From an uncultured Chthoniobacterales bacterium (lineage in GTDB: Bacteria; Verrucomicrobiota; Verrucomicrobiia; Chthoniobacterales; CALDSX01), in the NCBI GenBank assembly GCA_937924445.1, contig CALDSX010000109.1, positions 1-46,725 of the forward strand: 46,725 bases of DNA. Direction: 5' to 3'. Below are positions 11,527-28,747 of this stretch, piece by piece; position 1 is the first letter of the stretch; each line of letters opens with the position of its first letter. The notes beneath the pieces are model-generated. The model saw only the letters and a list, made by a program, of their open reading frames with translations, was not told where the DNA came from and searched no databases. The position numbers and the translations under genes were made by a program.

Positions 11527-11542
11527 CCAGTCTGTGCGGCAG

Positions 11543-13300
11543 ATGACGGGTATGAGTGCCGAGAACGCTGAAAAATCTCCGGCCAGACACCCTTTCCTTA
11601 AACGACTGAGTATATTGGGTCGCCTAGTCGGGGCCCTTGCGGCATTCTTCCATTCTGAGGCAGGCCTTAAGGCAAAGCTACTTTCCATAGCTCTTGTGGC
11701 GTTTCTTTTCGGGATAAATGGTCTGAACGTCTTGCTGAGTTACGTCGGGCGCGATTTTATGTCGGCCATCGAAAACCGCAACCTCGATGTCTTCATCCGA
11801 ATGGCTATCATCTATCTGGTGGTCTTTGCGGTTATCACAACGGTTGCGGTGTTTTTTCGGTTTATGGAAGAACGTCTGGCTTTGTTGTGGCGTCAGTGGC
11901 TGACGCGGCGTTACCTCGACATGTACCTCGGGGGTCGAGTCTATCAGCGCATCGCATCGGCCGGTATGTTACCAAACCCCGACCAAAGAATTGCCGAAGA
12001 TGTGCAAACTTTCACACGCATTAGCATTTCTTTCGGAATACTGTTTTTAAGTGGCTCAATTACAATCGTTGCATTTTCGGGAGTGCTTTGGTCTATCAGC
12101 CACACCCTTTTTCTCGTAGCCGTTACCTATGCGTTGCTTGGGTCGGTCGTCACCGTGCTTATCGGAGCAAAACTCATAGGACTAAACTCAGCCCAGTTCG
12201 ACAAAGAAGCAAGTTTTCGCGCACAACTTGTACACATTCGTGAGAATGCGGAAGCTGTTGCCGTCCTTCATCGCGAACGTCGCCTCAAAGGCAGGCTCAT
12301 CCGCAGCCTAGACGATCTGGTGGCCAACATGAAACGCATCATCGCAATTAACCGGAATTTGAGCTTTTTCACAACAGGATACAATTATCTAATCCAGATC
12401 ATACCTGCGCTGATTGTGGCACCCCTTTTTATTGAGGGCAAAGTCGAGTTTGGAGTTATCACTCAGTCGGGCGTGGCATTTGCGCATTTGATGGGAGCTT
12501 TCTCACTGATTGTCACTCAATTTCAGTCTATTTCTAACTATGCAGCAGTTATTACCCGGCTCGATGCCCTGGACAGAGCAACCATTGCGGCGCGTCGTCC
12601 GCAGACCGGGGGTATTGATGTCGTTGAGCGTGCTGGTAAGGTTGCTTTTGAAAATCTTTGCCTGGTAGATCCCGAGTTCGGCACCCCATTGCTCCTCAAC
12701 TTAACCCTTGAAATTCCAAAAGGGGCTCGCGTTCTTATTTGTGGCAAACCTGGCCTTGCAAAAGTTGCTCTCTTTCGGGCCACAGCGGGGTTCTGGCGCT
12801 CCGGATCGGGTTGCATCATCCGCCCCTCTTTTGACGATATTTTGTTCCTTCCCGAACGCCCTTACCTGCCACCCGGCACACTTCGCGAACTGATGCTGCG
12901 TAGCGCCCAAGATGAACTTGTTTCTGACGAAGAGATCATTCGTGTAATGAATAAACTCGGGCTTGAGCGAGTTCTCACCCGGGCTGGATCGTTGGAGAGT
13001 GAACACCACTGGTCCGAGCTCCTGAGTGATTCGGAACAACAACTCCTTGCAATCGCCCGCCTGTTGCTCGGACAGCCGGAGTTCGTTTTCATAGACAGAC
13101 TCAGCGCGACACTCAGCCGGGAGCAGGTCGCGAATGTTCTTCAAATCTTGGATGAATCAGCCTGTACTCTGATCGCTTTGGGACGGGCAGACGATACAGT
13201 AGCGCATTTCAACGGGGTGCTTGAAATTCGTCCCAACGGCTCATGGTTATACCGTGAGCAATGTCCCCTCAACCGCCGTGCAGTAGCCACACCTTCATGA
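11543..13300 (+). CDS. SbmA/YddA-type ABC protein, ATPase domain degenerate
   Basis: About 585 residues. The N-terminal 340 residues are an ABC_membrane_2 (SbmA/BacA, YddA, ABCD/PMP70) transmembrane domain: LNVLLSYVGRDFMSAIENR, WRQWLTRRYLDMYL and NPDQRIAEDVQTF are family hallmarks, with about six helices. The C-terminal ATPase-like domain has lost its catalytic motifs. Walker A reads GKPGLAKVA instead of GxxGxGKS/T, the signature reads LSDSEQQ instead of LSxGE, Walker B ends FVFIDR instead of a DE pair, and the H-loop histidine of the usual VGHR is gone (LGRADD). The frame itself is open, so this is a protein with a dead ATPase rather than an obvious pseudogene. Starts at 11534 (GTG), 11543 and 11552 (ATG) are all possible. 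The next gene overlaps as ATGA. Confidence 0.85.
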   Translation: MTGMSAENAEKSPARHPFLKRLSILGRLVGALAAFFHSEAGLKAKLLSIALVAFLFGINGLNVLLSYVGRDFMSAIENRNLDVFIRMAIIYLVVFAVITTVAVFFRFMEERLALLWRQWLTRRYLDMYLGGRVYQRIASAGMLPNPDQRIAEDVQTFTRISISFGILFLSGSITIVAFSGVLWSISHTLFLVAVTYALLGSVVTVLIGAKLIGLNSAQFDKEASFRAQLVHIRENAEAVAVLHRERRLKGRLIRSLDDLVANMKRIIAINRNLSFFTTGYNYLIQIIPALIVAPLFIEGKVEFGVITQSGVAFAHLMGAFSLIVTQFQSISNYAAVITRLDALDRATIAARRPQTGGIDVVERAGKVAFENLCLVDPEFGTPLLLNLTLEIPKGARVLICGKPGLAKVALFRATAGFWRSGSGCIIRPSFDDILFLPERPYLPPGTLRELMLRSAQDELVSDEEIIRVMNKLGLERVLTRAGSLESEHHWSELLSDSEQQLLAIARLLLGQPEFVFIDRLSATLSREQVANVLQILDESACTLIALGRADDTVAHFNGVLEIRPNGSWLYREQCPLNRRAVATPS

Positions 13301-26136: not shown

Positions 26137-26822
26137 ACTCTGGCGCTCTCTGCCTGTTTGATATCGACGGCACCATTCTCACCTCCGGCGGGGCAGGTGA
26201 AGAGGCTCTGCGCAAAGCGGTGCGCGACTTTGCGGGTTGCGACGATAACCTTGCTGGAGTTGAGATCTCAGGGCGAACCGACAAATTCATCGCGATGCAG
26301 ATTTGTCGGCGTCACGGACGAATGGCCTCGCCGGAAAACATCACCGCTTTCATCAATTCCTATCTTGAGCATCTCGAGTCTTTGTTGCCCCTTAAAAAGG
26401 GGCGTCTTCTGCCCGGTATCCCTGGACTGCTTGCCGCATTGAAACAGAGACGGCATGTAGCCCTGGGATTGTTAACAGGCAACGTGGCCAAGGGTGCGCA
26501 TCTCAAACTCTCTCATTATGGTGTGTGGGATTATTTCGAGTTTGGCGCCTTTTCTGACGACTCCCACGACCGCAACGAACTGGGGCATTACGCCGTGGCA
26601 CGTGCCACGGCTCTGCATGGGAAGGGGTTTGATCCAACGCGGACTTTCGTTATTGGCGATACACCTCATGATGTTGCCTGCGGTAAAGCAATCGGGGCGA
26701 AGACGGTGGTGGTGGCCACAGGAAGTCATTCACGTGAAGAGCTGGCAGACTGCAACCCAGACTTTCTTTTTGACGACCTCTCGGATGTCCCGGCGGTTCT
26801 TGCCGCGCTTGGAATTTCGTGA
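26133..26822 (+). CDS. HAD-family hydrolase (phosphatase-like)
   Basis: A 229-residue HAD-superfamily hydrolase, probably a phosphoglycolate-phosphatase-like enzyme. Motif I is LFDIDGTIL (nucleophile Asp10, acid Asp12), motif II LGLLTGNV, and motif IV VIGDTPHDVACGKAIGAKTV. The helical cap lies between about residues 18 and 85. ATG 26133 overlaps the infC stop as ATGA and so the pair is translationally coupled. It is 2 bases from the exporter gene that follows. The substrate cannot be read from sequence. Confidence 0.88.
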   Translation: MNSGALCLFDIDGTILTSGGAGEEALRKAVRDFAGCDDNLAGVEISGRTDKFIAMQICRRHGRMASPENITAFINSYLEHLESLLPLKKGRLLPGIPGLLAALKQRRHVALGLLTGNVAKGAHLKLSHYGVWDYFEFGAFSDDSHDRNELGHYAVARATALHGKGFDPTRTFVIGDTPHDVACGKAIGAKTVVVATGSHSREELADCNPDFLFDDLSDVPAVLAALGIS

Positions 26823-26824
26823 CC

Positions 26825-28747
26825 ATGCCAGACAAGCGTAAGAGAAAGAGAAACACGAGGGCACAAGCGAGGGGGCGCCTGACCAAAAAACAAATCAAAG
26901 CCGAACTGTCAAACGCCGGTTTCTTCAAGCTGCTGAGGGCGAGTTGGAAACCTTACTTCCAGCTATTCGATTACATGAAGCCCTACAAATGGCGCTTTTT
27001 TATGGGACTCGGCTTTGGCGCCCTGGCGGGCTCGGTGAACGGCGTGTTACCAATGGTCATGCACTATGTGGCCTCGAATATCTTCCCGGATGCCGGGGCA
27101 AAAAACATGGTCGCCGCCGCGCATGAGGGGTCAGGACCCGGGATCGGGGCGTTCATTCTGCCCTGCCTGGCCATTCCAGCTGCAATGCTTTTGCGCGGGT
27201 TGTTTTCTTACCTCAATGCCTACTACCTCGCATGGGTAGGGCTCAAAGCCTTGAACGATATCCGTCGGGATTTGTTCCAAAAACTCATGCAACAGAGCCT
27301 TGCATTCTTCAACCAACAGAGGGCTGGTATGATGGTGTCAAGGGTCATGATCCAATCACGCATGGCACAGCAGGCTCTAACGACGCTCAGTTCAGATTTG
27401 ATCAAGCAACCCGTTAACATCCTCGTGGGCATCTCAACATTGATCTATCTCGACTGGAAATTCACCATTATCTCTTTAGTACTTTTTCCGCTATGCCTGG
27501 TGCCCATGGCTGTTTACGGAAAAAAAGTCCGCTCCTCCGGCCGAAAAGAGGAAGAAGAAGCCGGCATGATGGCCGTTATTTTAACAGAATCGCTTCAAGG
27601 TGTGCGGGTGGTGAAATCTTTCGCCAGAGAACAGTTTGAAGTGGAACGCTTTAATTGTGCGAACCGTGCGCAGTTCCAGAATGCAATGCGCGTTCGCAAA
27701 AGTATGGAAATCGTCGGACCTCTCGTTGAGGTGGTGGCTGCTCTCGGAGCGGGCGCGGCGCTGCTCTACGTGTTCTTTAGCGGTCTGCCGGTGGCGCTTT
27801 TTATGGCTTTGCTCACAGGATTATTCCTGCTCTACGATCCTATTAAGACTCTGAGCAGGCTGCATATTCTCATGCAGAAATGCCTCGCTGCCACAGTCGA
27901 TATCTTTGATCTGATGGAGACAGAGCCAGATGTAAATGATGCTCCTAACGCACTTCCATTACGCGCCGGCAAAGGAGCCATCCGACTGGAAAACGTCTCC
28001 TTCACCTACCCGCGAACTGCCAAACCGGCTCTTAATGAGGTCAATCTGGATATTGAGGGTGGCCGCTATTATGCGCTTGTTGGATCAAGCGGTGCAGGCA
28101 AAAGCACACTCCTCTCGTTGATCCTGCGTTTTTACGACCCACAAAGTGGGAGGATCTTGATTGACGGAATGGATATCCGGCTTGTCACACAACAATCTTT
28201 GCGGGCCCAGATTGGCGTCGTCACCCAAGACACGTTCCTCTTCCACGACACCATCCGCAACAATATTCGCTATGGGCGACTCGATGCCACCGACGAAGAA
28301 ATCGAAGAGGCGGCTCGTCAGGCCTACGCGCATGACTTTATCCTTGCCCAAAGTCAGGGCTACGAAACCATCGTCGGCGACAAAGGTTGCATGCTCTCGG
28401 GTGGCCAACAGCAGCGCCTTGCGATCGCACGGGCGTTGCTCAAAAACGCTCCAGTTCTCTTACTCGACGAAGCGATGTCGGCCTTGGATTCTGAATCGGA
28501 ACAAATTGTCCAGGCCGCACTCGAACGCCTCTCACAGGGCCGCACAGTAATTGCCATCGCCCACAGACTCTCAACCATCCTCAAAGCCGATAAAATCGTT
28601 GTCATGGAGCAGGGCAAGATTCTCTCTATCGGACGGCACACAGAATTGCTCAATTCTTCACCCACCTACAAACGCCTTTACGAGTTACAGTTCCTGCACC
28701 CCGAGGAAACCGCTGGCGACGAAGGCAGGATCAGCGCTGCCGCTTAA
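26825..28747 (+). CDS. MsbA-like ABC exporter
   Basis: A 640-residue half-size ABC exporter with its membrane and ATPase domains in one chain, of the MsbA/lipid flippase type. A Lys/Arg-rich N-terminal stretch of about 30 residues precedes the six-helix ABC_membrane domain. The ATPase domain has Walker A GSSGAGKST (about 420-428), Q-loop GVVTQDTFLFHDTIRNNI, signature LSGGQQQRLAIARALL and Walker B VLLLDEAMSALDSESE, all intact. The start may be GTG 26819 (which overlaps the HAD stop) or ATG 26825. It is followed by a PAP2 phosphatase gene, so lipid export or lipid A/undecaprenyl metabolism is likely; this is inferred from the neighbour. Confidence 0.88.
   Translation: MPDKRKRKRNTRAQARGRLTKKQIKAELSNAGFFKLLRASWKPYFQLFDYMKPYKWRFFMGLGFGALAGSVNGVLPMVMHYVASNIFPDAGAKNMVAAAHEGSGPGIGAFILPCLAIPAAMLLRGLFSYLNAYYLAWVGLKALNDIRRDLFQKLMQQSLAFFNQQRAGMMVSRVMIQSRMAQQALTTLSSDLIKQPVNILVGISTLIYLDWKFTIISLVLFPLCLVPMAVYGKKVRSSGRKEEEEAGMMAVILTESLQGVRVVKSFAREQFEVERFNCANRAQFQNAMRVRKSMEIVGPLVEVVAALGAGAALLYVFFSGLPVALFMALLTGLFLLYDPIKTLSRLHILMQKCLAATVDIFDLMETEPDVNDAPNALPLRAGKGAIRLENVSFTYPRTAKPALNEVNLDIEGGRYYALVGSSGAGKSTLLSLILRFYDPQSGRILIDGMDIRLVTQQSLRAQIGVVTQDTFLFHDTIRNNIRYGRLDATDEEIEEAARQAYAHDFILAQSQGYETIVGDKGCMLSGGQQQRLAIARALLKNAPVLLLDEAMSALDSESEQIVQAALERLSQGRTVIAIAHRLSTILKADKIVVMEQGKILSIGRHTELLNSSPTYKRLYELQFLHPEETAGDEGRISAAA

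Follow-up and report, generated by a model that had tools for sequence, protein, structure and literature searches.

Apparent stepwise loss of ATP use in a lineage of ABC_membrane_2 transporters

The transporter gene and its altered ATPase motifs

The gene considered here lies in a 46,725-nucleotide stretch of DNA from an uncultured Chthoniobacterales bacterium (the window, meaning the whole stretch analyzed), and all of its features are on the forward strand. The frame (11534-13300) is open from a GTG and encodes 588 amino acids, or 585 from the ATG at 11543, from which residues of the window protein are numbered. By its open frame and Pfam matches, the product (11543-13300) is an ABC_membrane_2 half transporter with a degenerate ABC-ATPase: ABC_membrane_2 (PF06472) matches residues 41-296 (E 5.1e-41, 141.3 bits against a cut-off of 24.4), SbmA_BacA (PF05992) residues 77-344 (E 1.1e-17, over its cut-off), and ABC_tran (PF00005) residues 386-518 (E 1.6e-6, 29.2 bits against a cut-off of 25). 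These matches bear out a sequence-only reading of the locus, which had described an open frame with a recognizable domain fold.

The whole-length AlphaFold2 model (pLDDT 85.7) has one N-terminal helix (17-36) followed by long helices, and its first PDB match by E-value is Rv1819c (6tqe; E 6.4e-26, TM-score 0.80). From the PF06472 match and this model we took residues 27-346 (11621-12580) as the type IV transmembrane domain. Residues 360-572 (12620-13258) were taken as the degenerate nucleotide-binding domain (NBD), in which the ABC_tran match and a confidently modeled fold place an ABC fold. The first cytoplasmic loop retains its NPDQR motif (residues 145-149; 11975-11989); in the structure-conservation alignment, which covered 52 of the 62 clade and close-relative rows, P146, D147, Q148, and R149 are invariant and N145 is held at 90% or more. 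A stand-alone response-regulator receiver protein (PF00072; 11110-11526) ends 8 bases before the transporter GTG, which suggests that the two genes are co-transcribed in the window genome; the other neighbor is a PMT/ArnT-like protein.

Aligned with its canonical relatives, the NBD departs from them at many catalytic positions. The Walker A remnant GKPGLAKVA (12743-12769) keeps its Lys but has A406 for the third Gly and V408 for Ser/Thr; the Q-loop Gln is Glu438 (12854-12856); the signature remnant LSDSEQQ (13022-13042), usually LSLGEQQ in close canonical relatives, has S497 for Gly; the Walker B remnant (13082-13099) ends in D518-R519, with Arg in place of the catalytic Glu; the D-loop Asp is S525; and the H-loop His is Arg548 (13184-13186). 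The full canonical set (Walker A, Walker B Glu, Q-loop, signature, H-loop) is absent from the window protein. The claim that all catalytic motifs had been lost thus holds for changes in Walker A, the Q-loop, the signature, the Walker B Glu, the D-loop, and the H-loop, but overreaches in that G401, G404, K407, S495, and D518 are kept, so that nucleotide binding by the window protein may still be possible.

Relatives, order of events, and selection on the NBD

Relatives were sought in 97 genomes of the same order (21 with a match), in a genome collection (23 loci), in 387 drawn from the phylum (27 matching), in 384 from the class (36 matching at an E value of 1e-40 or below), and in the genomes behind 22 loci. 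The survey yielded 96 distinct frames of at least 100 bits, E. coli YddA counted, from those matches with a fetched locus, and these were sorted by motif. Thirty-six distinct sequences, the window included, are full-length with a degenerate NBD; 10 end at the membrane domain (open frames of 347-505 amino acids, upstream sequence included) and are called domain-less here; 16 are canonical close relatives; and the remaining 34 comprise fragments and other members of the family. Going by record titles or NCBI labels, degenerate proteins occur in Verrucomicrobiota (Akkermansiaceae, Luteolibacter, and others), in Gammaproteobacteria (Stagnimonas, Methylococcus), and in a metagenome-assembled genome (MAG) titled Deltaproteobacteria and labeled Myxococcota. 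Two genomes, G613 and G678, hold the intact, degenerate, and domain-less forms together as paralogs. Over residues 57-542 the window protein shares 25% identity with E. coli YddA. We found no prior description of this degenerate/domain-less family in the open-licence literature, and the main text of a survey of SbmA/BacA and BclA (PMC12003926) never uses "Verrucomicrob" or "degenerate".

Degenerate motifs were present, to a varying degree, in all 36 degenerate members, and the 16 close relatives are canonical throughout (Q-loop Gln and Walker B Glu in 16/16 each). The Q-loop position holds Glu in 35 of the 36, and the catalytic Glu position holds Arg in 26, His in 6, Asn in 2, Gln in 1, and Glu in 1. 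That 36 distinct sequences of one clade share degenerate motifs indicates that the degeneration is not recent. Conservation of the same substitutions among homologs, which the sequence-only reading had proposed as a check, is therefore borne out, and its suggestion that the protein shed ATP use but kept the domain appears to be right, since the substitutions are old and shared. Glu438 and Arg519 might form a charge-swapped pair, although the two positions do not strictly covary, because the Q-loop Glu stays where the Arg is His, Asn, Gln, or Glu.

A membrane-domain tree was built from 84 rows, drawn from the 96 frames plus SbmA; the 13 left out were L054 (at a contig end), both halves of L114 and of L115, which are split, and the outgroup members L016, L026, L027, L030, L071, L073, L075, and L103. 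Together, the degenerate and domain-less proteins (46) fall into a single clade supported at 100/100, which is sister to, or arises among, the 16 canonical proteins. Within it the 10 domain-less proteins are nested among the degenerate ones: the degenerate label needs two changes, and a single change was found in 0% of 200 bootstrap trees for this tree as for a second one (66 rows, without SbmA and other long rows) that agrees with it. Support for the domain-less group is 91/35 in the first tree and 85/36 in the second; the 91/35 value makes a single loss of the NBD likely but leaves it unproven. The exact place of the window protein is likewise unsure, because it diverges early in the clade and its branch is long. 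The ancestral states were probably Arg at the catalytic Glu position and Glu in the Q-loop, these being the commonest and found in most early branches; relatives close to the domain-less group carry His, Gln, or Glu at that Walker B position, the Glu being that of L134, a relative beside that group.

As read from these alignments and trees, decay of the NBD in place appears to have come before its loss, and the earlier description of the protein as an evolutionary intermediate fits a clade that includes members without an NBD. SbmA sits far from the clade, on a branch of 7.23 changes per column, with the caveat that attaches to long branches. The clade would thus apparently represent a second conversion of an ABC transporter to an ATP-free one, separate from SbmA/BacA and with intermediates surviving. 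Passages of a 2026 SbmA paper (PMC13316013) speculate that the membrane domain became separated from the NBD and cite a few split or NBD-less YddA genes; here, by comparison, decay in place apparently preceded loss.

The NBD is still constrained. Its dN/dS is 0.01-0.34 in 16 close degenerate pairs and 0.41-0.76 in 9 more distant pairs, the latter unreliable because the rows are distant; these are the 25 pairs listed of 202 that passed the filter. The ratio of NBD to transmembrane-domain divergence has a median of 1.47 among degenerate proteins (627 pairs) and is 1.03 among intact ones (120 pairs). Columns held in at least 33 of the 36 degenerate proteins number 25 of 213 in the NBD and 113 of 320 in the membrane domain, and those held in at least 15 of the 16 intact proteins number 82 and 106. 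By these measures the dead NBD is kept under purifying selection, yet relaxed. Three charged loop residues, D144, E248, and D251, are present in 16/16 intact proteins, while among the 46 clade proteins the residue is acidic at 144 in 5 and at 248 and 251 in none (251 is Arg in 42). These positions probably face the NBD, in which case their loss would fit transport that has become independent of force from the NBD.

Linked phosphorylases and the candidate substrate

A glycoside phosphorylase lies directly downstream of the transporter at 14 of 35 degenerate loci (4 of the SOGP type on the same strand, 10 of the GH94 type on the opposite strand) and at 7 of 10 domain-less loci, each time an SOGP gene on the same strand. 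No intact locus (0 of 16) has one there, although flank lengths differ and one locus has only 233 downstream bases. Four of the phosphorylases were typed by Pfam and the rest by BLAST to those four. At 10 loci lacking a phosphorylase, a mixture of genes follows the transporter. One intact locus (L149) has an F5/F8-domain protein of a kind that also adjoins some clade loci. Among the minor neighbor clusters (four loci each), which share no common theme, one lies upstream of the domain-less L105, L104, and L148 and of L066 (the scanned L105 member is an outer-membrane efflux protein, PF02321), and the scanned member of another (L049) is PPK2.

The association extends to whole genomes. If, as we assume, the three class draws (384 each) cover identical genomes, 19 of them carry the clade; 11 of the 19 have SOGP and 7 others have a GH94 gene of the L033 type, together 18 of 19. 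Two of the seven GH94 genes are partial (G485, running to the contig end, and G308, a 678-aa frame); their position beside the clade gene is why they were included. SOGP matches came from 11 of the 365 class genomes that lack the clade: identity was 38-41% in ten of them and 62% in one (G048). Another 27 GH94 matches covered only the C-terminal part (query start at 329 or later); 22 were in long frames like those of full synthases (2,314-3,079 aa), and the other 5 in frames of 762-1,494 aa. The Fisher p values, both overstated because of kinship among the genomes, are 6e-14 for SOGP at 50% identity or more (10/19 versus 1/365) and 2e-7 for full-length short GH94 (5/19 versus 0/365). Nineteen further clade genomes add 13 with SOGP (one at 36% identity) and 4 with an adjoining GH94 gene; SOGP is present in all three genomes that supplied Methylococcus loci and in the Myxococcota MAG. 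One genome being common to both sets, SOGP or short GH94 occurs in 35 of 37 distinct clade genomes; in these searches G500/G675 and G691 gave neither. At the same threshold SOGP was found in 0 of 10 control genomes carrying only other members of the family, three of which (G004, G014, G091) gave a C-terminal GH94 match in the class search.

There is no phosphorylase gene within the window. The SOGP gene of the window genome lies, unlinked, on another contig (C8); its product shares 58% identity with the L040 protein and retains the DWND motif, which presumably has a role in SOGP. It is directly downstream of an F5/F8-domain protein of the same Pfam type as that beside the clade gene of L032. 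Both of these proteins (L157:2143-5235 in the window genome, adjoining SOGP, and L032:6695-9778, adjoining the clade gene) are about 1030 amino acids long with an F5/F8-type C domain, and the only solved matches of the former are glucanase/chitosanase chains that are themselves about 137 residues long.

The best solved relative of SOGP is 5h3z (E 2.3e-183), an entry titled "Uncharacterized protein" that we take to be the 1,2-beta-oligoglucan phosphorylase LpSOGP, in keeping with the Pfam name; the nearest solved relatives also include the cyclic beta-1,2-glucan synthases 8rf9 and 8rf0 (E ~1e-212). Both clade-associated phosphorylases thus resemble beta-1,2-glucan enzymes in sequence, and the linked phosphorylase provides a concrete candidate substrate. 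Parts of PMC3960220 describe an arrangement in Listeria in which a 1,2-beta-oligoglucan phosphorylase gene adjoins a putative ATP-driven importer suggested for these oligosaccharides. The peptide uptake proposed in the earlier reading finds no support here: no peptide-related gene was seen among the clade neighbors scanned, and neighboring and co-occurring genes point to glucan.

Transport mechanism and competing explanations

That the clade proteins work independently of ATP is well supported by their sequences. The sequences show directly the motif loss, the shared descent, the nested loss of the domain, the purifying selection, the absence of another gene of the family in the window genome and many others, and the linkage and co-occurrence with phosphorylase genes. 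What we infer is a lack of ATPase activity, a homodimer, a bracing role for the dead domain, and the substrate, direction, and driving force. The explanation that we prefer, and regard as an even call, is a homodimeric half transporter without ATP hydrolysis that imports beta-1,2-gluco-oligosaccharides, the gradient being kept by cytosolic phosphorolysis. The transmembrane domain would still alternate between inward-open and outward-open states, and the dead ATPase domain would probably serve as a cytoplasmic brace or dimer-holding part, one that is dispensable given the 10 relatives without it. The substrate, most likely a linear or cyclic beta-1,2-linked gluco-oligosaccharide, would probably enter down its own gradient, and a cytosolic phosphorylase (of the SOGP type in the window genome) would maintain that gradient by converting it to glucose 1-phosphate. 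A phosphorylase behind a passive carrier would in this way sustain inward flow and save bond energy. Against the preferred explanation stands the purifying selection on the NBD, which implies that this domain does something, and the model of the domain-less form is poor (pLDDT 65.2) and was set aside. Further points against it are the Walker A Lys and Walker B Asp kept by most degenerate members, the lack of linkage between transporter and phosphorylase in the window genome, the intact-type paralogs of 10 clade genomes, with which the clade protein might pair, the Walker B Glu of L134, the two genomes that gave neither phosphorylase, and the SOGP matches in class genomes lacking the clade.

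More tentatively, we propose that this conversion was separate from that of SbmA/BacA, with all stages (intact, dead, domain-less) still alive, and that the ATPase may have become redundant as a phosphorylase draws the imported beta-1,2-glucan into the cell and stores its bond energy in glucose 1-phosphate. Intermediate stages exist in living bacteria and bear on the way in which primary transport driven by ATP turns secondary or passive. The finding is confirmed and larger than first stated, namely an ABC lineage apparently giving up ATP in visible stages, and Verrucomicrobiota proteins annotated as ABC ATPases may not use ATP.

Known systems offer partial likenesses. YddA, BclA, and Rv1819c, ABC_membrane_2 proteins with an active NBD, share the domain order and fold of the window protein, but YddA keeps canonical motifs, whereas the site is dead here and some relatives are domain-less; passages of PMC12003926 state that BclA requires ATP hydrolysis. 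The solved Rv1819c chain (6tqe) keeps the Walker A lysine region, but at the column of the Walker B Glu it shows Gly, which may be natural or engineered. The Cgt/ChvA/NdvA exporters of cyclic beta-1,2-glucan, which are PF00664-type with an active ATPase, resemble the clade in possible substrate class. ChvA and NdvA are ABC transporters that work with a beta-1,2-glucan enzyme, and sections of PMC3960220 and PMC11842490 describe Cgt in the same terms. By these descriptions the clade is set apart, its partner being a phosphorylase and not a full synthase. The ABC exporters LmrA and MsbA, for which parts of PMC2704374, PMC4979069, and PMC6155054 report ion coupling, are a precedent for this fold using ion gradients, although those are laboratory findings on transporters with active ATPases.

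Among the rivals, the one that fares best, though we consider it unlikely, is a sensor role for the NBD, which would bind ATP or some other nucleotide, hydrolyze none, and gate transport. Retention of the Walker A Lys in 24/36 and of the Walker B Asp in 33/36 degenerate members, the near-universal Q-loop Glu, and the purifying selection on the domain speak for such a sensor, and Tyr or Phe occupies the presumed A-loop column in 31/36, where intact proteins have Leu or Ile, so that the true column may be another. The Walker A glycines and Ser/Thr are widely replaced, however, the signature Gly is kept in only 21/36, and the domain is absent altogether from 10 relatives, 7 of which have the same partner gene.

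Slightly less probable again is a proton-driven peptide importer like SbmA/BacA (the SLiPT family), in which the NBD would be dead and a glutamate ladder would couple protons to peptide uptake. SbmA, described in passages of PMC13316013 as a proton-driven relative of ABC membrane domains, belongs to the same membrane-domain family as the window protein (by the PF05992 match), and the likeness extends to an ATP-free transporter on the same kind of membrane domain and, in the domain-less relatives, to the lack of an NBD. The same passages name the six glutamates of the SbmA proton ladder. Two of them, E193 and E276, have counterparts in E152 and E222, but ATP-driven kin share both, and E203, E269, E287, and E378 align with I162, N215, R233, and N332. 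An SbmA-type ladder was rejected on this count. The window protein further differs from SbmA/BacA in keeping a (dead) NBD, which 10 relatives lack, in having one kept N-terminal helix where SbmA/BacA have extra TM0a/b helices and no elbow helix, in keeping the NPDQR loop, and in its place in the tree, subject to the long-branch caveat. On the loss of coupling helices that marks SbmA/BacA the sequences point both ways, with the NPDQR loop kept and D144, E248, and D251 changed. No peptide-related neighbor was seen among those scanned, and the mechanistic analogy drawn in the sequence-only reading finds no support. On the other hand, the residue at D220 is Asp in 46/46 clade members and in none of the 16 intact proteins (9 Glu, 6 Gln, 1 Arg); an acidic residue occupies position 228 in 36/46 clade members and 0/16 intact proteins (the window protein has Gln). 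This pattern would allow an ion-coupled mechanism of another kind, that is, an ion-coupled variant of our preferred explanation using residues other than those of SbmA.

A heterodimer in which the protein is the degenerate half and a catalytic ABC protein the other, as in exporters that have a single dead site, is improbable and somewhat less likely than the SbmA-like importer. In its favor, three other transporters of the PF00664 kind are present in the window genome, and besides the clade gene 10 of the 36 clade genomes carry an intact-type ABC_membrane_2 paralog, which in G667 is broken into two frames. The PF06472 gene is nevertheless single in the window genome and in 20 of the 36 (15 with a degenerate copy only, 5 with a domain-less copy only), most of which are MAGs and may be incomplete, although one, Stagnimonas aquatica, is a named strain; the other 6 carry two clade copies or pieces. 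A lone degenerate or domain-less ABC_membrane_2 gene speaks against a catalytic partner of the same family. Moreover, the ATP site and the signature are both altered, and 10 relatives have no NBD to pair through; no NBD was matched in the flanks of the 10 domain-less loci (tblastn, E of 0.01 or below; downstream flanks of 8-3,964 bases). Intact close relatives beside a nearby catalytic partner, which on the earlier reading would have indicated a heterodimer or recent decay, were in general not found, the nearest intact proteins being a separate group at 33-39% identity, although the 10 genomes with an intact-type paralog go some way in that direction.

A recent pseudogene or assembly artifact is hardly credible and was rejected: the NBD is relaxed relative to intact relatives, but 36 distinct sequences, including that of the named strain Stagnimonas aquatica THS-13 (L048), have open frames and shared substitutions, and dN/dS in the 16 close pairs is far below 1.

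Some further observations concern other ABC genes in these genomes. One of the three PF00664-kind transporters, an ABC_membrane (PF00664) exporter at 26819-28747 of the window, has canonical motifs by eye. The intact-type copies L114 (G345) and L115 (G667) are both split in two frames, G667 also holding a whole domain-less copy; it is possible that these splits reflect ongoing replacement of the ATP-driven paralog, or they may be assembly errors. Another partly degenerate group of ABC_membrane_2 proteins (L011, L013, L014, L016, and L019, from genomes G030, G070, G004, G039, and G046, which all belong to family f5) keeps Walker A and the Walker B Glu intact and has Arg for both the Q-loop Gln and the H-loop His. 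Four of these five genomes (not G039, from which none was fetched) also gave a copy with the Q-loop Gln and H-loop His, and the partly degenerate proteins are possibly halves of heterodimers.
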